A stretch of 64,000 bases of DNA from positions 1,456,921 through 1,520,920 of the forward strand of contig NZ_LSKU01000001.1 in assembly GCF_001561915.1 (NCBI RefSeq). Direction: 5' to 3'. The notes under the pieces are model-generated. The model was not told the DNA's origin, did not search any database, and was given only the letters and a program-made list of their open reading frames with translations. The stretch's first letter is position 1; each line of letters begins with the position of its first letter. This document shows, piece after piece, positions 38,558 to 58,800 of this stretch. The position numbers and the translations under genes are program-made. This DNA is from Tepidibacillus decaturensis. GTDB lineage: Bacteria; Bacillota; Bacilli; Tepidibacillales; Tepidibacillaceae.

Positions 38558-39601
38558 CTATTTTTTCATTCTAATCATTACATAATTTTTGCTTCTTTTT
38601 CCAAAAACGGCTCGTCCTAATATCAATAGCAGATTGACAAAAGCAAATCCACTACCAAAATAAAAGACAAATGAGATAGCATTGGCATACTGATTAAATG
38701 CAGTTACCGTATCCAAACCCATCTGCAACAAAAAGATAGCTAGAGCTGCACCTGAAACCCGCCCAAAATTTCTTATAGTAGCGATAATCCCACCTGTCAC
38801 ACCAGTTTTTTCAACCGGAACGCTTTCGATCACGGCGACATTATTTGGTGATTGGAATAATCCCATACCAATCCCAAAAATCATAAGTGCAAAAATAATA
38901 TCAAATTGACTTGTTGCTACATTAAAATTACCCATCAACCAAAGTCCTAATGAACTGAGTCCCATTCCTATTAATGACGGTATATCATAACCAATTCGAT
39001 CAGTAAACCAACCGCTAATTGGAGAAACAATCAACATGGTTACCGCCTGAGAGGTCATTAAAAAACCAATTTGTAAAACCTCCAAATGAGTTACATTATA
39101 TAAAAACAAAGGAAGCAAAATAGATGGAAACATAATGAGGGCATAAGAAGAAAGCCCTGTAATATTCCCAATCGTAAAAATAGGATTTTTAAATAATGTA
39201 AGCTCGATCAGTGGATCCTCTACCAAAAACTCCCGTATAATAAAACCTATCCAACTGATGATCGATACGGTTATATAGGTAAGGGTAATCGGACTTTTCC
39301 ATCCCCAGGTATGCCACAACACTACCAATTAAACCCATAGCCTTACCTCTTGATCCCGGTGGAAAAGTATAAGCGATAATCGACATGACATTTGCCTGCA
39401 TAATCGCACCACCAATCCCTTGAATCACTCGATAAGCAATTAACTGTCCTATCGTCGCAGAGATCGCCGATAAAATAGAACCGATTGTAAAAATGGCTAA
39501 ACCGAGAATAAAAATCCCTTTTCTTCCTCGTAGATCAGATATTTTTCCCACTGTTGGCAAAATACCCGTAATAATCAGTAAATAGCTTTCCTATTTGCCA
39601 T
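38558..39601 (-). pseudogene. MFS (DHA2/EmrB-type) multidrug efflux pseudogene
   Basis: The ATG at 39601 (AAAGAAAGGG upstream) starts MANRKAIY and then hits TGA. Three pieces of a DHA2 transporter follow. One encodes LLIITGILPTVGKISDLRGRKGIFILGLAIF through MGLIGSVVA. The second frame resumes with WGWKSPITL, then VEDPLIELTLFKNP and the C-terminal half through MIFGIGMGLFQSPNNVAVIESVP. Compared with full-length members of 14 helices, the N-terminal segment and the ~90 residues between GLIGSVVA and WGWKSP are missing. These are real deletions, not single-base errors. The gene is dead, yet its promoter and leader hairpin remain. Confidence 0.85.
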
Positions 39602-46861: not shown

Positions 46862-46891
46862 AAAATGGATACCTAATTTTGGTATCCATTT
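46862..46891 (-). terminator. Terminator of the response-regulator operon
   Basis: AAAATGGATACC / GGTATCCATTT stem with a 7-nt loop just after the stop codon at 46895, followed on the minus strand by TTTG. Confidence 0.75.
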
Positions 46892-46894
46892 GGA

Positions 46895-47935
46895 TCATGA
46901 TTTTGTAAATTCAAGCTGGATCTTAGTATATAACATCCCATTCATTTCATAGATAATAAAATCACGATGTATGTTATTTGCTAACTCTTGCAAAAACAAA
47001 CGAATTAAATGAAGATGATCTAAATCAATAGGTTCCTTTAGAGTTATTGATGAAAAACAATCTAATTTTATTGTTTGAGGAGACTCTTCTATCGTTAAAG
47101 TAACTGGAAGCTCATCCGTATTTTGATATTCAATAACATATTTATAAAAAGAAAACAAAATAAAGATTAAAAGTTTATAATTTCCTCGTAAACTTAAATT
47201 GGCGTTCCCTTTTATTGTCGTTTGTAAATGTTTCGTTCGACTTTCACTAAAAATAAATTGATCAAGATCATGAGTTAATTGATTGATATCAAACACTTCG
47301 TATGTACTTGGTAAGGTCTTTACATACCCTAAATATAAATCTTTATAGATATCCAAAGCACGTACCATCTTATTTTTTTCGCCCGTATCCTTTAAAGCAA
47401 TCTCCTTGATGTTCCTAAAAATATAGGTTGCCATTTCACCAACTTTTAGCATATTTTCTTGGAAAAGATCGTATTTATTTTTTGTTGTTTCAATGATTCG
47501 ACGATAGGAATCATTCTTTCTTTCCAAATCTTTCCTTAATAACTCTTTCTCTTTCATCATATTATAGTTCTCTATCGCTTCTTGAATAACAGGAATAAAT
47601 TCGTCATCTAAATTCCATGGTTTTGTTATAAATTTAAAAATTTCTCCTTGATTAATGGCAGCCAAAACCTGGGGTAATTGCGTATAGCCAGATAAAACAA
47701 TTCTCACAATTTGGGGGTAAGATGCTTTTACTTTTTTAAGCAATTCCAAACCGTTAATCTCGGGCATTTTCATATCTGATACAATTACACTAATCTCTTC
47801 TTTCTCTAAAATATCAAAAACATCTTTTGCCCTCTCAACAAATATGCATCGAAAGTTTTCATCCAATAATGCTCTTTTTAAAGAGTTTAATACTTTTACA
47901 TCATCATCTACAATTAATACAGTATTTTGTTGCAC
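46895..47935 (-). CDS. Response regulator with atypical C-terminal kinase-like domain
   Basis: 346 residues. Residues 1-125 are a receiver domain: VLIVDDDVKVLNSL, phospho-acceptor Asp in VSDMKMPEINGLELL, the Thr/Ser of IVLSGY and the Lys of FKFITKPWN. Then a coiled-coil (MKEKELLRKDLERKND) and a C-terminal domain (GNYKLLIFILFSFYKY, then LEFTK) that weakly recalls a HATPase fold but lacks recognisable N and G boxes. No DNA-binding domain. GTG start at 47935 with GGGGTG. It is the last of four genes in a signalling operon. Confidence 0.75.
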   Translation of the reverse strand: MQQNTVLIVDDDVKVLNSLKRALLDENFRCIFVERAKDVFDILEKEEISVIVSDMKMPEINGLELLKKVKASYPQIVRIVLSGYTQLPQVLAAINQGEIFKFITKPWNLDDEFIPVIQEAIENYNMMKEKELLRKDLERKNDSYRRIIETTKNKYDLFQENMLKVGEMATYIFRNIKEIALKDTGEKNKMVRALDIYKDLYLGYVKTLPSTYEVFDINQLTHDLDQFIFSESRTKHLQTTIKGNANLSLRGNYKLLIFILFSFYKYVIEYQNTDELPVTLTIEESPQTIKLDCFSSITLKEPIDLDHLHLIRLFLQELANNIHRDFIIYEMNGMLYTKIQLEFTKS

Positions 47936-47949
47936 AGTTTCACCCCTTC

Positions 47950-49143
47950 CTACAAATCCCTTTTTTGTTTTTCCTCTATAAAAGTTATGGCGATCTTATG
48001 AACCATTTGTTCTAAGTTTCTTTCTTTCAGACCTAATAAATCAAATACTTTACGATTTAGTTCATAAGGAACAAGCCCGAAAAATTTCCATGAATAATAA
48101 TTTGCTAGATGCAGGATATAAACCAATTCTTTATTTCTAATATTGTCACACAATGGTTTGTGAAGGTAAGATGCTGATTCAATCAAAGGATCAGGAAGCC
48201 CCCACCAGCTTAATAAGTAACCTCCTACTTCTTGAGATGTCATTTTAAAAGTCTTTTCTTCCAATTTTTCTATCGTTTCTTTTTTCTCCTTAGCATCAGT
48301 TATTAAATCCGTATATTCATTTGTAAAAGCAGATTGTAAAATTAAACCCCCAATATTACACAATAAACCTACTGAGTCATATTGAAGGTCAATGTTCTTA
48401 CACAGTAGTTCTTGATAGATATAATGAACAATTTTATTTGTTAGTATTGAATGATTTACTATCAATCCAATATTTTTCTGAGTAATGGCATCATCCAAGC
48501 TATCATACCAATCTCTAAATAAAATATTTTCTAAATCATTCAAGTTCAAATAATTTAGTGCTTTCTTTACTGAACCTGTTTTGATACCATATGCAGAATT
48601 CACAAAGTACAATACTCTCAACGTTGTCGAAGGATCTCTTTCAATAATTTTGATGATTTCTTCAATTTCTGCCTTATCCACTAATTTTAATCTTAATTCT
48701 TTTTCATTACTGTACAAAGAAGGAAATGCATCTCCATAAATTTCAACAAATCTTAATAGGTTCTTTTGTTCCAAAATATCTTTCAGATAGAATAATCGAT
48801 TGATTAGGTTGATCATATGATCATTATCCCAGGGCTTTAATAGGTAAAAGAATGCTAAATTTTCCCTAATTGACTTCATAATTATTTCTTTTTCTGCAAA
48901 ACCACTTAAAATGATTCGGATCAGCTTAGGGTATTTTTTATAAACTTCTTTTAATAGTTCATAGCCATTCATCACTGGCATTTTCATATCTGTAATCAAT
49001 AAATCAATATTTTCACTTGCCAAAATAGAAAGGGCTTCATTTCCGTTTTCCGCTAAAAAAACACCGTACTCTTCATGAATAAATAATCTTCTTAATGAAT
49101 TTAGGATACTTTTTTCATCATCTACAAAGAGGATATTTTTCAT
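47950..49143 (-). CDS. Response regulator with HDOD output domain
   Basis: 397 residues. Receiver domain 1-120 (ILFVDDEKSILNSLRRL, ITDMKMPVMNGYELL, IILSGF, FYLLKPWDND) followed by an HDOD module (from ~150: IIKIIERDPSTTLRVLYFVNSAYGIKTGSVKKALNYL). The region SILTNKIVHYIYQELLCKNIDL...DSVGLLCNIGGLIL shows the degenerate HD pattern. HDOD proteins bind nucleotides or partners without metal-dependent phosphodiesterase activity. Overlaps the preceding HD-GYP gene by 26 nt, so they are translationally coupled. Confidence 0.85.
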   Translation of the reverse strand: MKNILFVDDEKSILNSLRRLFIHEEYGVFLAENGNEALSILASENIDLLITDMKMPVMNGYELLKEVYKKYPKLIRIILSGFAEKEIIMKSIRENLAFFYLLKPWDNDHMINLINRLFYLKDILEQKNLLRFVEIYGDAFPSLYSNEKELRLKLVDKAEIEEIIKIIERDPSTTLRVLYFVNSAYGIKTGSVKKALNYLNLNDLENILFRDWYDSLDDAITQKNIGLIVNHSILTNKIVHYIYQELLCKNIDLQYDSVGLLCNIGGLILQSAFTNEYTDLITDAKEKKETIEKLEEKTFKMTSQEVGGYLLSWWGLPDPLIESASYLHKPLCDNIRNKELVYILHLANYYSWKFFGLVPYELNRKVFDLLGLKERNLEQMVHKIAITFIEEKQKRDL

Positions 49144-50158
49144 TTAACAATCCCCCTATAAAAGTGTCAACTATGTTCTTATCAAACTGCTTTCCTCTTC
49201 CATTTTGTAAAACCTCAAGTACTTCTTTTTGGGACATCCCTTTTCGATAGATACGATTCGCACGCATAGCATCATATGCATCAGCAACTGAAAGGATTTT
49301 GGCTTCAAATAATATTTCATCATTAGTTAGGCCAAGGGGATACCCAAGACCATCAATTCTTTCATGATGTTGACGAATGATTTCTACGACTTCTTTCATA
49401 AAATCAATTTCATCTAATATATAAGAACTTACCAAAGGATGATATTTCATTGCTGTATATTCTTCTTCGGTTAATCTATCAGGTTTAAATAATATATGAT
49501 CCCTAAGTACTATTTTCCCTATGTCATGAAACAAACCTGCATATTTAAGTGTTAATTTTTGCTTATATGATAGATTTAGTAAATCAGCAATATATAATGA
49601 ATAATGAGCTACATTTTTGGAATGTGTAAATAGTTCCATATCTTTTGCTTGTATAACCCTAAGTAAAGTTTTTTCTATCTGTCTATTTGTTTTGACAAGC
49701 TTATTTCTTAATTGTTGTATCATATTTTCATATTCATTATTCTTTGTTAATAATTGATTTAAAATCGTATCTTTCTGGTCCATTCTTTGTTTATAATCAA
49801 TTGACTCTTCTATTATTTTTACAAGATCATCATTTTTCCAGGGCTTTGATATATATCGATGGATAGAACCTTCATTGATAGCAGAAACGAGCACATCTAG
49901 ATCAGAATAACCAGTAACTAATATTCTAACCGTATTATGAGACACTTTTTTTGTATACTTTAATATATCGATCCCTAATACTTTTGGCATTCTTTGATCC
50001 GTTATCACAAGATCAAATTGATAGGTATTCAATAAATCATAAGCTTTTTCAGGATAGGTTGTATAATATAAATGATAATTTAAACCATCTAAAACACGCT
50101 TAATAGAATTAATCACATTGATCTCGTCGTCAACTAAAAGGATCTTATATTTTCTCAA
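49118..50158 (-). CDS. Response regulator with HD-GYP c-di-GMP phosphodiesterase domain
   Basis: 346 residues. Receiver 1-120 with Asp54 in VITDQRMPKVLGIDIL and the KPW loop; coiled-coil linker 125-175; HD-GYP domain 175-346 with FHDIGK (H211, D212), LRDHILFKPDRLTEEEYTAMKYHPLVSSYIL, HHERIDGLGYP, LSVADAYDAMRANRIYRKG and the late KQFDKNIV. All metal-ligand His/Asp residues and the GYP motif are intact, so hydrolysis of c-di-GMP is expected, under control of phosphorylation. TTG start with AGGTG upstream. Encoded downstream of a riboswitch-controlled kinase gene. Confidence 0.92.
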   Translation of the reverse strand: MRKYKILLVDDEINVINSIKRVLDGLNYHLYYTTYPEKAYDLLNTYQFDLVITDQRMPKVLGIDILKYTKKVSHNTVRILVTGYSDLDVLVSAINEGSIHRYISKPWKNDDLVKIIEESIDYKQRMDQKDTILNQLLTKNNEYENMIQQLRNKLVKTNRQIEKTLLRVIQAKDMELFTHSKNVAHYSLYIADLLNLSYKQKLTLKYAGLFHDIGKIVLRDHILFKPDRLTEEEYTAMKYHPLVSSYILDEIDFMKEVVEIIRQHHERIDGLGYPLGLTNDEILFEAKILSVADAYDAMRANRIYRKGMSQKEVLEVLQNGRGKQFDKNIVDTFIGGLLNEKYPLCR

Positions 50159-50209
50159 CTTGTTTCACCTACTTTCAAATATAAATATTAAATCATCACT
50201 TCTTTGAGA

Positions 50210-51681
50210 TTAATTGAATGCTTGATGAATGGGGAGTTTAATCATAAATTTAGTTCCGACACCTTTTGTGCTTTCCACAGTTATTGCTCCATGATGTTTA
50301 TTAGTGATAATATCATAAGCTATACTTAGTCCTAACCCTGTTCCTTCTCCTACAGGTTTTGTTGTAAAAAAGGGATCAAAGATTGATGATATGTTTTTTT
50401 CTTCTATTCCGATTCCATTATCCTCAAGCTCACAATATACATCATCATCTTTAGCGAAGGTTCGAATTTTTATCAAACCAATCTCTGGTTGTTTCTCTTT
50501 AATTGCATAAGTGGCATTTAATAATAAATTGAGCAATACTTGGTTTATTTCTCCACCTATGGCATGAATAATCGGTATTTCTTCTAGGTATTCTTCAACT
50601 TGCACTTGATATTTTAAGATATTTCTAGCAACAACTAATGTATTTTTTATTCCTTCATTTAAATCATAATCTTCAAAAATATCTGTTTGTCCTCTTCTGG
50701 AGAACATCCTTAACTCTTTTATAATTTCATTTACTCGATCAATTCCTTCATTTGAATCTCTAAATAATTCTTCTAAATCTTCGTTAATAAACGAAATATT
50801 ATTTTTCCTTTCAATACTTTCAATTTCTTCTATGATCAAATTAATATTCTCCAATTTCAATTGTTCTTCTTCTCTCAAATTGCCCTTGAATCTTTGATAG
50901 ACTTCGATCACTTCTTTATATTTATAGAAATATTTCTCTAAGGTATCGAAGTTACTTTTAATAAAAGCTAAAGGATTATTGATTTCATGAGCGACCCCAG
51001 CTGCTATCTGTCCAATCGCAGCAAGTTTCTCTTGGTGGATTACTTGGGATTGGGCGCTTTTTAATTTCTCTTCCATCTGCTTTCTCATTGTAATATCCTC
51101 AATCTGAGCAATATAGCGAGCAATCTTTTTCTCCTCATTTTGGATAGAGGAAATAGATACATGCCCCCAAAATAATTCTCCATTTTTTTCTTGCTTTGAA
51201 ATTCACCTTGCCAATTCTGGCTTAATGTAATTGAATCATGAAAAATACTATAATGTTTGCCTAACATTTCTTCATATGTATATCCTGTTAGTTGGGTACA
51301 TTGTGGATTTACATCTTCTATCTTTCCGTTTTCATCCATAATAATAATACTTATTGGACTCTGTTCAATGATCTTAGATAACATACAAAGGTCTAATTCA
51401 TCTTTTCTTAGTTTTAAGCGATTATAATAAATGAACAGAAAAACAAATAGTGAAGTAAATATAATTGCAATCAGGTATTTAAAATCATGTAAAGCCAAAA
51501 TAGAGTGTATAGTGTTGTCATCCTTGAGTTGAGTAACAAAATTAGCTAGCAATAGGAAAGCGTTAGCTATTATAAAATAGAGAAAAGTAATTTTTAAAGA
51601 ACTTACTTTCTCTTTTCTATAGTTGGTTGTAAGTTCAGTAGTAAAACCAATCGATGAATTATGATTATTTAGTTTAACCAT
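50210..51681 (-). pseudogene. Membrane PAS-domain histidine kinase, frame broken at an A7 run
   Basis: The upstream part (51681 to about 51190) has one or two membrane helices (ITFLYFIIANAFLLLANFV; IAIIFTSLFVFLFIYYNRL) and a PAS domain (IIEQSPISIIIMDENGKIEDVNPQCTQLTGYTYEEMLGKHYSIFHD). The frame breaks at an A7 run (51183-51189, plus strand); adding one A continues the PAS end and PAC. Then come HisKA (EKLAAIGQIAAGVAHEINNPLAF) and HATPase_c (EINQVLLNLLLNATYAIKEKQPE, ELEDNGIGI, FDPFFTTKPVGEGTGLGLSI). The whole is 490 residues. ATG at 51681 follows GGGGGAGG. It heads the operon below a c-di-GMP riboswitch and its terminator. Confidence 0.8.
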
Positions 51682-51739
51682 CAGAATCCTCCCCCTTGAA
51701 ATAGTGATTATCAAAAAATTCGGCTTATTGCTTTTACTA

Positions 51740-51781
51740 AAAAAAGATCTATGTACACCAAGTGCACATAGATCTTTTTTA
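51740..51781 (-). terminator. Riboswitch-associated terminator
   Basis: Long perfect hairpin AGATCTATGTACAC / GTGCACATAGATCT with adjoining A and T runs on both sides, between the c-di-GMP riboswitch and the kinase start codon. It fits transcription control by the riboswitch. Confidence 0.8.
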
Positions 51782-51782
51782 C

Positions 51783-51862
51783 AAGTGCAACCTGGCAACC
51801 ATAGTTAATCCCTTAGGCCCATAGCTTTGCGTCCCTACCTTTCAATAGGTTTGCCAAAATAT
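51783..51862 (-). ncRNA. Cyclic-di-GMP-I riboswitch (GEMM-I), copy 1
   Basis: In minus-strand RNA the conserved core appears in order: GGCAAACC, a short stem with a GAAA tetraloop, GGGACGCAAAGC, the GGCCTAA block, then GGTTGCCAGGTTGC closing the second helix. These are the invariant elements of the class I c-di-GMP aptamer, including the tetraloop and its receptor. It lies upstream of the PAS kinase operon that encodes an HD-GYP phosphodiesterase. Confidence 0.9.
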
Positions 51863-51909
51863 ATCGTTTTTTATCGTTTATTGAATTATACTGAAATATA
51901 TGATGAGAT

Positions 51910-54207
51910 TCAATTAAGAATAGACACCCTACCTTTAATAGGCAGTTTTACCACAAATTTAGATCCTATTCCTTCTTTACTTTCTACAGATATTTCCCCT
52001 TGATGTTTGTTTACAACGATATCATAAGAAATACTTAATCCAAGACCCGTTCCTGTTCCAACAGGCTTTGTAGTAAAAAAAGGTTCATAGATTCTATTGA
52101 TAAGCTCTTCTTTTATTCCGATCCCATTATCCTCTATTTCACAGTATACATATTCTTCTTTTTGATAAGTCCTAATCGTAATCATCCCTTCATTACTATC
52201 CTGTTTCATTTCTATTGCATAAGCAGCATTCAGAATTAAATTTAAAATCACTTGATTGATTTCGGCACCAATGGCAATGATGTTGGGGATATCTGTCAGC
52301 TCTTCATTGATATTCGTATCATATGTAATTTTACTTTTGGCGATAATTAAAGCGGTTTTAATTCCTTCATTAAGATCGTAAGGACTAAATTCATTTAATT
52401 GATCAATACTGGAAAAAGCCCTTAGTGCATTTACAATCATTTTAATCCGTTCTAATCCTTCATTTGTATCATTTAATAGTTCAAAAAGATCTTCCATTAC
52501 AAAGGCAATCTTGTTATTCTTTTCATATTCTATAATATCATCCAATATTTTTTCTTTTTTCTCAGTTGAAAGTTCTGAGAAATTGAGCAAGGCATCTTTA
52601 TACTTTTGTAAGAGTTCCTCTATTTTTAAAGTATATTTTTTAAATGTATGGTAATTACTCGTAATAAAACCCAAGGGGTTATTGATTTCATGAGCGATTC
52701 CTGCCGCCAGTTGACCGATTCCTGCCATTTTTTCTTTTTGAATCAATTGAGATTGTGCGTCATTTAACTTCCTAATGGTTTTCTGAAGCACTATATTTTG
52801 TTCTTCTATTTTTTTATAAAGTATTTTCTTTTCAGTAATATCCTCTCTCACTGATATAAAATATTTAATTGTACCGTTTTCATCCTTTATTGAGGAAACA
52901 GAGGTCGATTCCCAATACAACTCTCCATTCTTTTTCTTATTATAAAATTCACCAGACCATTCTTTACCTGAAAGTATAGTCTTCCAAAAATCAATATACA
53001 TTTCTTTAGGATGTATTCCGGATTTAAGAATGCTTACATTTTTCCCTATCACTTCTTTATACGTATAACCACTAACTTGCGTAAATTTTGGATTTATGTA
53101 TTGGATGTACCCGTTTATATCTGTAATAATTACAGATGAAGGACTATGTTCAATCGCACTAAGCAACTTATTAATCTCTTCATCAGCCTGTTTTCTTTTG
53201 GTTATTTCATCAGATATCGTCAATCTATTTTTTTCCAATAACTCTTCCATATTTTTGTAGATGATATTATTTTCAATAATGACTGCTGCTTGTCCTGCCA
53301 AAGAATAAATAATCATTTCATCTTTATCACTAAAAGAAATAACCTTATTTGCTTTCATTTTATTAATAAGCTGTATCACGCCTAACACACGATCTCGGTG
53401 ATCCTTCATCGGCACCGTTAAGATTGACTTTGTTCTATAACCAGTAACTTGATCAAAACCAGAATTAAACTGGTATTCAACATCACTTGGCAAATCATAA
53501 GCATCATCAATTCGTAATGATTGACCAGTAATCACAGCGTAACCAGAAATTCCATTTTTTGAAATCGGCGACGTTGTTGATTCTAGTTCTACCTTCAGGC
53601 TATTATTTCTCGCTAATACAAATTTTAATAATTGATTTTTAGAATTTCTTTCATAAGTAGTCCAATCGAGATTATCTTGGTTAACAACTATATAAATCGT
53701 TCCAGCATCAGCAGAAGTCATTTCCATCGATGAATCCATAATTTGTTGTAATAGCTTATTAATATCTTTCTCAGCGGATAATTCTTTTCCTATATTATAG
53801 AAACGTTGTACTTCCTTTTCTAAAGTATCCAATTTTTGTTGACGTGTCAGATTATTCTTAAGCTTATAAAGGAATTTACTTATTGTAAACTTACTCTTGC
53901 ACACAAGAATATCATCAAGAAAAGCTTCTCTTGAAAGTAAGTCTATGTTATCTTGAAATAAACCAATCGTTTTATTCTGTGGCTTTCTTAGAATTTGGAA
54001 AAGCTGCTCTTCCATTTGATTTAGGAATATATGGTCAATAAAGATAATGGTATCATCGGGATCTTGGTTTAATCTTAATTCCTTTTCCAATTGGATTAAA
54101 TCTGTAATGATAAGTATCGGTTCAAATTCATTTTTAATGACATCCAAAAACTCTTCGTATTTTTTGATAGATTCTATACAGATGATCGTTTTTAAATTCG
54201 TCAACAA
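51910..54207 (-). CDS. GAF-PAS sensor histidine kinase
   Basis: 765 residues, no membrane segment. Residues 1-120 are receiver-like but lack the usual phospho-Asp context; 140-310 are a GAF domain (LLQQIMDSSMEMTSADAGTIYIVV, ISGYAVITGQSLRIDDAYDLPSDVEYQFN, ILTVPMKDHRDRVLGVIQLIN); 340-460 are PAS/PAC (IEHSPSSVIITDINGYIQYINPKFTQVSGYTYKEVIGKN); then HisKA (EKMAGIGQLAAGIAHEINNPLGF, phospho-His in AHEINNP) and HATPase_c (EINQVILNLILNAAYAIEMKQ, EDNGIGI, GTGTGLGLSISYDIVVNKHQG). TTG start with GAGGTG. Strongly similar to the kinase in the next operon, probably a paralogue, and a candidate partner for the orphan receivers. Confidence 0.9.
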   Translation of the reverse strand: MLTNLKTIICIESIKKYEEFLDVIKNEFEPILIITDLIQLEKELRLNQDPDDTIIFIDHIFLNQMEEQLFQILRKPQNKTIGLFQDNIDLLSREAFLDDILVCKSKFTISKFLYKLKNNLTRQQKLDTLEKEVQRFYNIGKELSAEKDINKLLQQIMDSSMEMTSADAGTIYIVVNQDNLDWTTYERNSKNQLLKFVLARNNSLKVELESTTSPISKNGISGYAVITGQSLRIDDAYDLPSDVEYQFNSGFDQVTGYRTKSILTVPMKDHRDRVLGVIQLINKMKANKVISFSDKDEMIIYSLAGQAAVIIENNIIYKNMEELLEKNRLTISDEITKRKQADEEINKLLSAIEHSPSSVIITDINGYIQYINPKFTQVSGYTYKEVIGKNVSILKSGIHPKEMYIDFWKTILSGKEWSGEFYNKKKNGELYWESTSVSSIKDENGTIKYFISVREDITEKKILYKKIEEQNIVLQKTIRKLNDAQSQLIQKEKMAGIGQLAAGIAHEINNPLGFITSNYHTFKKYTLKIEELLQKYKDALLNFSELSTEKKEKILDDIIEYEKNNKIAFVMEDLFELLNDTNEGLERIKMIVNALRAFSSIDQLNEFSPYDLNEGIKTALIIAKSKITYDTNINEELTDIPNIIAIGAEINQVILNLILNAAYAIEMKQDSNEGMITIRTYQKEEYVYCEIEDNGIGIKEELINRIYEPFFTTKPVGTGTGLGLSISYDIVVNKHQGEISVESKEGIGSKFVVKLPIKGRVSILN

Positions 54208-55657: not shown

Positions 55658-55830
55658 CTATTAAGTTTTTTACAAAAAACGACAAAATCGTTTCAATTCT
55701 TATCAATACCGTATATAATAGATTTGGAATGATTTACTAACTTACTTTAAGATAAATAAACCATAAACTTCACTTTTTGTCAATCAAAGAACCTAGTTTT
55801 TATCATTTTTTTACGCTAGGAGGGATTCTT

Positions 55831-58800
55831 ATTCTTTGTTTTAATTGCGGTTATCACTTACCATCAAATTATCCAAAGGAATGTCCTTTATGTGGGATGA
55901 AATTGCCAATAAAATGTTCTTCCTGTGATTCGCCTAACCCCATCATGGCCAAGTTTTGCTTTAATTGTGGACATAAAATATCCCAATCAGAGATTGAAAG
56001 CTCTGTGCAAAACTATGAGATTCTTACGGAAAACAGAAAAAATGTAGCTGTCATCTTTGCTGATGTATCTGGATTTACGGCATTGTCGGAAAAAATGGAT
56101 CCAGAGGAAGTTCGGGAAATCATCAATGAAACTTTTGCTTATATCACCAAACCTGTATATGAATTGGAAGGAACCATCGACAAGTACATCGGTGACTGTG
56201 TGATGATTCTTTTCGGAGCAAAATATCCTCATAGCGATGACCCTTACAGAGCCGTCAGCTGTGGCATGAAGATGATCGACTTAATCCAAGATTTTTCAAA
56301 AGAAAGACTATCCAGTAAAGGGGTAACATTAAATCTTTCCATCGGAATTAATTACGGTCAGGTTGTGACTGGAAGTGTGGGAAACTATTTTGATAAAGAC
56401 TTTACCGTTATGGGAGATGTGGTCAACACAGCGCAAAGACTTCAAACTCAAGCAGCAGCTGGCACGATCCTTGTATCAGAATCTGTCTATCAAGAAACAA
56501 ATGATCAAATTGATTACTCTCCTGAAAAAGAGATCATTGCCAAAAACAAAGAAAAACCAGTAAAATGCTTTAGCCCTCTTCATTTAAAACGAGAAGCAGC
56601 TATTGATTCGCTGTTTTTAATCGAACGGGATGATGAAACGAACTTTCTGCATTCAATCTACAATCAACTAAATAGCACAGAGTATGTCACCATTATCGGG
56701 GAGGCAGGAACTGGTAAAACAAGCCTGCTAAGAAGCTTTACGTCAAAACTAGACAATCAACTTAAAAAACATTGGGTCGATATCAATGTTGGCTACAAAA
56801 ACAGAATCTATTCGGTTCTGTCCAACATAATCTACCAAATGATGAACCTCCATCCTACTGAAAGTGAAAAGATAAAAGAAAACCGCCTAAAGTCGTATCT
56901 TGCTTATCTCTTTCAAAACTCAAGCATTGGTGAGGAGGAGACTCAACGGAACTATCGTTTTTTAAGCTTGGTTATGGGTTTAAAAAGAGACCATGAATTT
57001 CAGAATATCTTGAATGCGATGAACTATGAAGATATCAAAAGAGAAATATTCAATCAGGTTTCTTTATTTATCAGACAGGCCGCTCGTAAAGAACCTTTTG
57101 TTATCATCATTGAGAATATCCACTGGGCAGACGCAGGATCAATGGAAATATTGACAAATCTGGTCAAAACACTGCCAGATGTGAAATCTCTTTTCATTTT
57201 TACTTCAAGATATGAAAGAGAAGAATTAAATAATAGTGGCAAAGATAGCCATTCTATTCTGAAACTCAAACCGCTTAGTCCAACTGGAACAGAGAAACTA
57301 GCTTGCAAACTATTAAATTGTAGCCATCTTGATGAACCATTGCTTCAGGCGATTATTCAATTTACAAAAGGATATCCACTCCATATCAAAGAATATTTGA
57401 TGGCTCTTAAAAGAAGAAAAACATTCTCTATTCAAGACGGAACCGCATCGATCGATGTATCCGAACTTCAGACGATTCCTAACACCATCGAAAGCCTTAT
57501 TTTAGCTAACTTATCTGATTTAGATGAATCGGCGAGAAACTTATTACAACTCGCTTCAGTTATCGGGAAAGAGTTTCATTTATCCTGGTTGACTCATTTA
57601 ATGAATTCAACATCCACTGAAGATATATTAGCGCTACCAGTAAAAATGAATATTATTTCACTGCAATCGGTTCACACCTCTTTAGGGATAGACAAAATCT
57701 ATACCTTTAATCAAGAAACGGTAAGAGAAGTCATTTATCATAGTATGCTAAACAAAACAAAAATGGAATATCATAAAAAAATTGCGGAATGGCTTGAAAT
57801 CAACTATGAAAAAGACCTTGAAAACTATTACGAACAATTAGCCACTCATTTTGAAAAAGCTGGTAGCCTAAGTCAAGCAAAAGAGTATTACTATAAAGCG
57901 GCTTTCAGATTAAAAAAGGATTATCAATATACTAGTGCTTTAGACTTTTTTAAGAAATACCTTGAAATCAACGAGAAAACACAAAATAAAGATACAAATA
58001 AAACGATTCTTTCTCTCATAGAAATGGGAAATATTTATACTATCCTTGCCCAATATGACAATGCATTAGATCATCTTAAAAAAGCGCTTGAGATCGCAAA
58101 TGTATCAGATGATATCTATCAGATTCAAATCATGATTGCGAATCTCTACAAAGCAATGAGCCAGTTTGAAAAGGCATTGGAAGTGTTAGATGAAATCCAA
58201 CCTAAAATCAGACAAAACAGCAATACGTATGGAAAATTCCTACAATTAAAATGCAATGTGTTAATCATCTTAGGAAATCCTGAAGCATTATCAATAGCTG
58301 AAAAATCGGAAGAAATCTTATTAAAAACAAGGGATTATGAAAATCTAGCAGAAACGATGAGACAAGCTGGTATTTTATATTTTATGAATGGAGATACAGA
58401 TAATTCTCTGTTTTATTTAAACAAAGCTTATGATTATGCTGAAAGAGTAAATAACCTGAGAACAATGGTTAAAATTTCAGGAAATTTAGGAATTATTTAT
58501 CATACATCTGGCATGATATCCAAAGCGATTAATTATTTTAACAAAGCGATCGAAATAACAAAAAAATATCAAATATTCATACTTATATCGCCACTCTTAA
58601 CAATTTAGGAATTCTTTATCTGCAAAAAGGCATATTCGCTAAAGCTGAATCATTATTTCAAGAGGCCATTGCAAAAGCTCAAGATGGAGTATCCATCTAT
58701 TTAATGGACATCGCATTATTGAACTTAGGTGACTTAATGTATGAAAAAGGAAAGATAGACCAAGCTTTTGACTACTACAAGCAATCGCTGGAAATAGCAA

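Follow-up and report, generated by a model that had tools for sequence, protein, structure and literature searches.

A predicted OFF-type class I c-di-GMP riboswitch over a phosphorelay operon encoding a putative HD-GYP phosphodiesterase in Tepidibacillus decaturensis

In a 64,000-nucleotide (nt) window of the Tepidibacillus decaturensis genome (contig NZ_LSKU01000001.1, positions 1,456,921 to 1,520,920), a class I cyclic diguanylate (c-di-GMP) riboswitch aptamer and an intrinsic terminator precede an operon for a histidine kinase and three response regulators, one of which is a predicted c-di-GMP phosphodiesterase with receiver (REC) and HD-GYP domains (Table 1; positions are counted from the first letter of the window, and the operon lies on the minus strand). 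This pairing of riboswitch and operon is real, and the four-gene run described in a first-pass annotation of the window is confirmed, with the kinase gene split in two. The reading that we favor, with a probability of about two in three, is that of an OFF-type, terminating riboswitch over a phosphorelay operon, which would result in double-negative, that is positive, feedback on c-di-GMP.

The aptamer is well conserved and matches the full length of the RF01051 model. The selectivity position before the CAAA motif carries G instead of A (UUGGCAAACC), and the ligand-pairing C is present (GUUGCAC), both as read in the sequence; we take these residues to be the equivalents of G20 (position 20), which marks selectivity for c-di-GMP over cyclic GMP-AMP (cGAMP), and C92 of Vc2. 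Recognition of cGAMP was considered as well, but the G before CAAA makes it an unlikely ligand. Binding of c-di-GMP by this RNA, and its control of expression, are predicted from the sequence. The first-pass annotation had placed a class I aptamer at the head of the operon and a terminator 3′ of it, and both were recovered; the terminator is a 19-bp hairpin with a T tract that does not overlap the aptamer itself (51780 versus 51783). A candidate promoter upstream of the aptamer is supported mainly by its position, and promoter-like matches are as frequent in shuffled sequence. The upstream kinase gene and a DUF3307 gene were considered as parts of the riboswitch transcript and rejected, since both are located upstream of the aptamer. 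The genome contains five class I c-di-GMP aptamers.

The direction of the switch is suggested by a possible antiterminator. The 3′ half of the aptamer (ACUAUGGUUGCCAGGUUGCAC), which includes its closing strand, is complementary to the terminator over its tip, loop and 3′ arm, and CCAGGUUGCAC would pair with GUGCACUUGG. The 17-bp duplex has a computed energy of -22.9 kcal/mol, compared to -10.6 +/- 2.7 kcal/mol for shuffled downstream sequence; an equally good duplex was obtained in one of 3000 shuffles of the downstream sequence and in two of 3000 when the aptamer strand was shuffled. No other strong alternative pairing was found in the leader. The leader therefore combines a terminator with an antiterminator that excludes the ligand-bound aptamer, as in transcriptional OFF riboswitches, the sign itself being predicted. 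Since the aptamer 3′ half can pair with the terminator, ligand binding should cause termination, and an OFF switch is most likely. When the leader is folded stepwise, its minimum-energy structure at 110–114 nt contains the antiterminator, the 3′ arm of the terminator not yet having been made, and the terminator wins later; this modeled path is as expected for a kinetic switch.

The three regulators named in the first-pass annotation (HD-GYP, HDOD and atypical output) were found by Pfam in close order, each as an open and intact reading frame. The HD-GYP and HDOD genes overlap, the last regulator follows the HDOD gene after a gap of 14 nt, and an intrinsic terminator closes the transcription unit. 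The HD-GYP domain contains all of the metal ligands in a list that we take to be that of PmGH (E175, H179, H211, D212, K215, H240, H264, H265 and D293), and its HHExxDGxGYP motif is present as HHERIDGLGYP. The nearest solved relatives are PmGH (4mcw), which shares the best score, and V-cGAP3 (5z7c). Hydrolysis of c-di-GMP by the REC-HD-GYP protein is predicted on these grounds. Genome-wide, there are eight matches to GGDEF, seven to HD-GYP (this protein and six others) and only a partial one to EAL; therefore, removal of c-di-GMP must rest mainly on HD-GYP proteins.

Table 1. Features of the riboswitch leader, the operon and the adjoining kinase gene, in the order of transcription.
Feature	Positions	Strand	Evidence and remarks
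Upstream paralogous GAF-PAS histidine kinase, intact	51910-54207	minus	Pfam
Candidate promoter, TTGAAT-17-TATAAT	51885-51913	minus	10/12 consensus matches; ~20 nt upstream of aptamer, overlaps end of upstream kinase gene
Class I c-di-GMP riboswitch aptamer (RF01051)	51783-51865	minus	67.0 bits versus gathering cut-off of 35; E 6e-11; full model length
Aptamer 3′ half, possible antiterminator strand	51785-51805	minus	17-bp duplex with 51767-51749, -22.9 kcal/mol
Intrinsic terminator hairpin and T tract	51739-51780	minus	19 bp, -23.7 kcal/mol; contains antiterminator partner 51767-51749
Kinase N-terminal part: two predicted membrane helices (by eye) and shortened PAS	51085-51681	minus	Pfam PAS; tblastn versus paralogue
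A7 run where kinase reading frame shifts by -1	51183-51189	minus	
HisKA-HATPase_c kinase core, separate open reading frame	50210-51088	minus	Pfam HisKA 7e-10, HATPase_c 1e-22
REC-HD-GYP response regulator, predicted c-di-GMP phosphodiesterase	49118-50158	minus	Pfam HD_5 2e-37, REC 1e-19
REC-HDOD response regulator	47950-49143	minus	Pfam HDOD 8e-22, REC 5e-22
REC and histidine-kinase-like core	46895-47935	minus	Pfam REC only
Intrinsic terminator closing the transcription unit	46863-46891	minus	

The same inventory can be turned against a loop: with six further HD-GYP matches in the genome and a 3′3′-cGAMP phosphodiesterase as one of the two best solved relatives, the HD-GYP domain of the operon might be inactive or act on another dinucleotide, and the riboswitch would then gate the operon as a c-di-GMP output, as these riboswitches usually do (PMC6366702). 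This explanation is unlikely, given that the metal ligands and the motif are all kept and that the best score is shared with PmGH.

With an OFF-type RNA and an active enzyme, c-di-GMP would repress synthesis of its own phosphodiesterase, in a positive feedback gated by phosphorylation. At low c-di-GMP, the 3′ half of the unoccupied aptamer would engage the terminator at its tip and 3′ arm, allowing RNA polymerase to read through and the operon to be expressed, with the kinase core and all three regulators as products; the phosphorylated REC-HD-GYP protein would then lower c-di-GMP further. At high c-di-GMP, the occupied aptamer would hold its 3′ half, the terminator would form and the operon would be silent. 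Either state, high or low, would be stabilized by such a loop, while the signal received by the kinase would set whether the phosphodiesterase is active. The first-pass annotation had proposed a feedback loop and left its direction unstated. A loop is structurally plausible, with a conserved aptamer, intact HD-GYP residues and all of the genes between the aptamer and one terminator, and the expression platform points to ligand-induced termination and thus to positive instead of homeostatic feedback. If true, the conserved OFF switch, acting on a phosphodiesterase that is itself gated by a phosphorelay, would offer a compact and testable example of RNA-made positive feedback in second-messenger signaling.

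Several points weigh against this reading. Even in the absence of ligand, the full-length leader favors the terminated over the read-through fold by 7.7 kcal/mol; therefore, either switching depends on kinetic trapping or the leader is off most of the time. Pairing of the antiterminator kind does not exceed chance in the four other riboswitches of this genome, nor in that of a distant relative with the same layout (L065, see below) taken singly. The P1 end of the aptamer is atypical (UGCAC versus the consensus UGCC), the operon may contain internal promoters, and the kinase frame is broken, with no single frame that joins the sensor to the HisKA-HATPase core. Precedents for the sign are mixed: the class I riboswitches tested in Clostridioides difficile are uniformly OFF (PMC6200980), and some others are ON or unresponsive, such as Bc1, which is ON in a Bacillus subtilis reporter (PMC11218506). 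An ON-type switch, in which binding of c-di-GMP frees transcription and induces its own phosphodiesterase, would provide the negative feedback that is the common pattern of metabolic riboswitches (PMC6366702), and a weak contact between the U-rich upstream strand of the aptamer and the terminator's A tract is conceivable. We consider an ON-type switch quite improbable, however, as the sole strong alternative pairing predicts ligand-dependent termination and the terminator and aptamer do not overlap.

The PAS kinase reported as the first gene of the run has the expected kinase domains but is not one open gene, being split over two frames at 51189-51183. The kinase core forms a separate open reading frame with its own GAGG-ATG start, and the ATG at 51088 overlaps the upstream stop (51085) as ATGA. 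The core alone keeps the phospho-accepting histidine, the HisKA and ATPase domains and a plausible start, whereas the PAS domain is about 13 residues shorter than in the intact neighboring paralogue (tblastn). The kinase may be partly broken, and the split may represent fission, decay, slippage or a homopolymer sequencing error; none of the relatives searched belongs to this genus. Programmed -1 frameshifting was also considered, but the A7 run, in frame, is G AAA AAA A instead of the canonical A AAA AAA/G slippery heptamer. Low-level slippage at this run is possible but unsupported, and re-initiation at the overlapping ATGA is the simpler account. Decay of the whole locus, with a kinase pseudogene and a riboswitch link that is vestigial or bypassed by internal promoters, is very improbable: the split frame, the PAS loss and a second broken gene in the window (a transporter gene, described below) are compatible with it, but the kinase core is preserved, the reading frames of the three response regulators are uninterrupted, the adjoining paralogous kinase gene is intact, and the complementarity of the antiterminator has been kept at a level far beyond chance.

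This intact paralogue, a GAF-PAS kinase encoded directly upstream of the riboswitch and overlooked in the first-pass annotation, is a candidate partner of the three regulators; an equivalent kinase is found upstream of the riboswitch in L065. The transporter gene belongs to the major facilitator superfamily (38558-39560, minus strand) and is split over two frames; some sequence seems to be missing where they meet, and no homopolymer is evident there. Thus, real decay does occur in this genome.

The arrangement is partly conserved in relatives. The closest counterpart is L065, from an unrelated Clostridia bacterium metagenome-assembled genome (MAG; Go_SlDig_bin_83), with the order kinase, class I c-di-GMP aptamer (73 bits), terminator, REC-HD-GYP, REC, REC/kinase-like regulator and kinase. 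The REC-HD-GYP proteins are 47% identical and the REC/kinase-like regulators 36% over the matched stretch. The two loci share the upstream kinase, aptamer, terminator, REC-HD-GYP, REC and REC/kinase-like genes, but in L065 no kinase gene lies between the riboswitch and the HD-GYP gene and the HDOD domain has been lost from the second regulator. In Fusibacter and in a MAG of the Peptostreptococcaceae, homologous modules (L066, L068, L070 and L071) contain the kinase, REC-HDOD and REC/kinase-like genes in the same order; in contrast to the operon described here, they have no REC-HD-GYP gene in the run and no c-di-GMP riboswitch in the 14–21 kb around it. Among 398 genomes of the phylum, no riboswitch lies within ~1.5 kb of the closest matches for REC-HD-GYP and HD-GYP.

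The riboswitch and REC-HD-GYP gene might further form a bistable memory, an RNA latch whose conservation would extend from this genome to a Clostridia lineage, with the phosphorelay as its reset input. This idea is tentative; since the layout is conserved, it is testable. A literature search on riboswitch-based bistable control of c-di-GMP returned no papers. If true, the latch would be an RNA-based instance of the rarely described riboswitch control over c-di-GMP turnover.

Riboswitch control of c-di-GMP metabolic genes has been reviewed as rare. The usual targets of c-di-GMP riboswitches are output genes (PMC6366702). Among ~57 class I c-di-GMP loci in related genomes of the class, which were the best-scoring loci and not a random sample, the first downstream gene encodes an HD-GYP protein in four (L113, L114, L128 and L141) and an EAL-Spo0E protein in one (L105). 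In these loci, and behind one further riboswitch of this genome (L156), the first downstream gene encodes a predicted phosphodiesterase domain, but it stands alone and not in a phosphorelay operon. The sample says that riboswitch control of phosphodiesterase genes is uncommon, not exceptional, and suggests that it is less rare than stated in reviews. In L156 (C1, 94390-104390), the riboswitch lies ~490 nt before a PAS-PAS-GGDEF-HD-GYP gene, and a related PAS-HD-GYP gene is found behind a similar leader in L141 (genome G002). In L105 (genome G024, reverse strand), the EAL-Spo0E fusion gene behind the class I riboswitch and its terminator carries a tract of 29 G about ten codons past the likely start (285-313 of the reverse complement), a length at which the EAL domain is out of frame. 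Barring an assembly error in the length of this tract, the gene resembles one for a phase-variable phosphodiesterase.

Among described systems, CmrRST of C. difficile is a published riboswitch-controlled phosphorelay (PMC8844915). It is similar in that a c-di-GMP riboswitch precedes a multi-regulator phosphorelay operon, but the riboswitch is of class II and is ON with c-di-GMP, an invertible switch is present, and no phosphodiesterase is described in the operon (PMC8844915). The class I (GEMM-I) OFF riboswitches of C. difficile, such as Cd1 before flgB, share the class I aptamer, the intrinsic terminator and the ligand-induced termination that is predicted here; they govern flagella, adhesins or a protease, whereas the targets here are a predicted c-di-GMP phosphodiesterase and a phosphorelay (PMC6200980, PMC6366702). 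The arrangement, called unusual in the first-pass annotation, is uncommon but not unique, considering L065, the other HD-GYP and EAL genes behind class I riboswitches and CmrRST. The predicted self-regulation of c-di-GMP is likewise of an uncommon but known kind.

The last regulator of the operon has no histidine in its helical hairpin and no ATP-binding motif recognizable by eye. Its AlphaFold model (predicted local distance difference test score 75.6, predicted template modeling score 0.47) consists of a receiver, a helical hairpin and an alpha/beta domain whose elements are ordered like those of a kinase ATPase domain. The top Foldseek match is the Leptospira hybrid regulator LvrB, and the secondary-structure order is compatible with a regulator of that kind, in which REC is followed by DHp and ATP-binding domains, but the whole-chain template modeling score is only 0.3 and Pfam gives no match beyond REC. 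The model weakly suggests that a pseudokinase core is joined to the receiver, and it might pair with the kinases. Used as a query, this regulator found no relatives in a search of genome contigs and, in 41 related genomes, nothing but receiver-domain matches. Receiver proteins with a histidine-less kinase-like core form a family that includes this regulator and those at L065 7672-8709, L066 5702-6706 and L068 12121-13257; their genes adjoin kinase and HDOD regulator genes, and only the receiver is seen by Pfam.

The window also contains a second, stronger class I c-di-GMP aptamer (55656-55570, minus strand, 88 bits), which the first-pass annotation had missed. This aptamer and a terminator-like hairpin (55478-55441) precede a gene for a small secreted protein of no known family (55410-55012, minus strand), and a 63% identical protein is encoded behind a class I c-di-GMP riboswitch in another genus of the same taxonomic family (L110). 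Divergent from this second riboswitch is a gene for a large protein (55777-58608, plus strand) with a zinc ribbon, a class III nucleotide cyclase domain, an AAA ATPase domain and TPR repeats.

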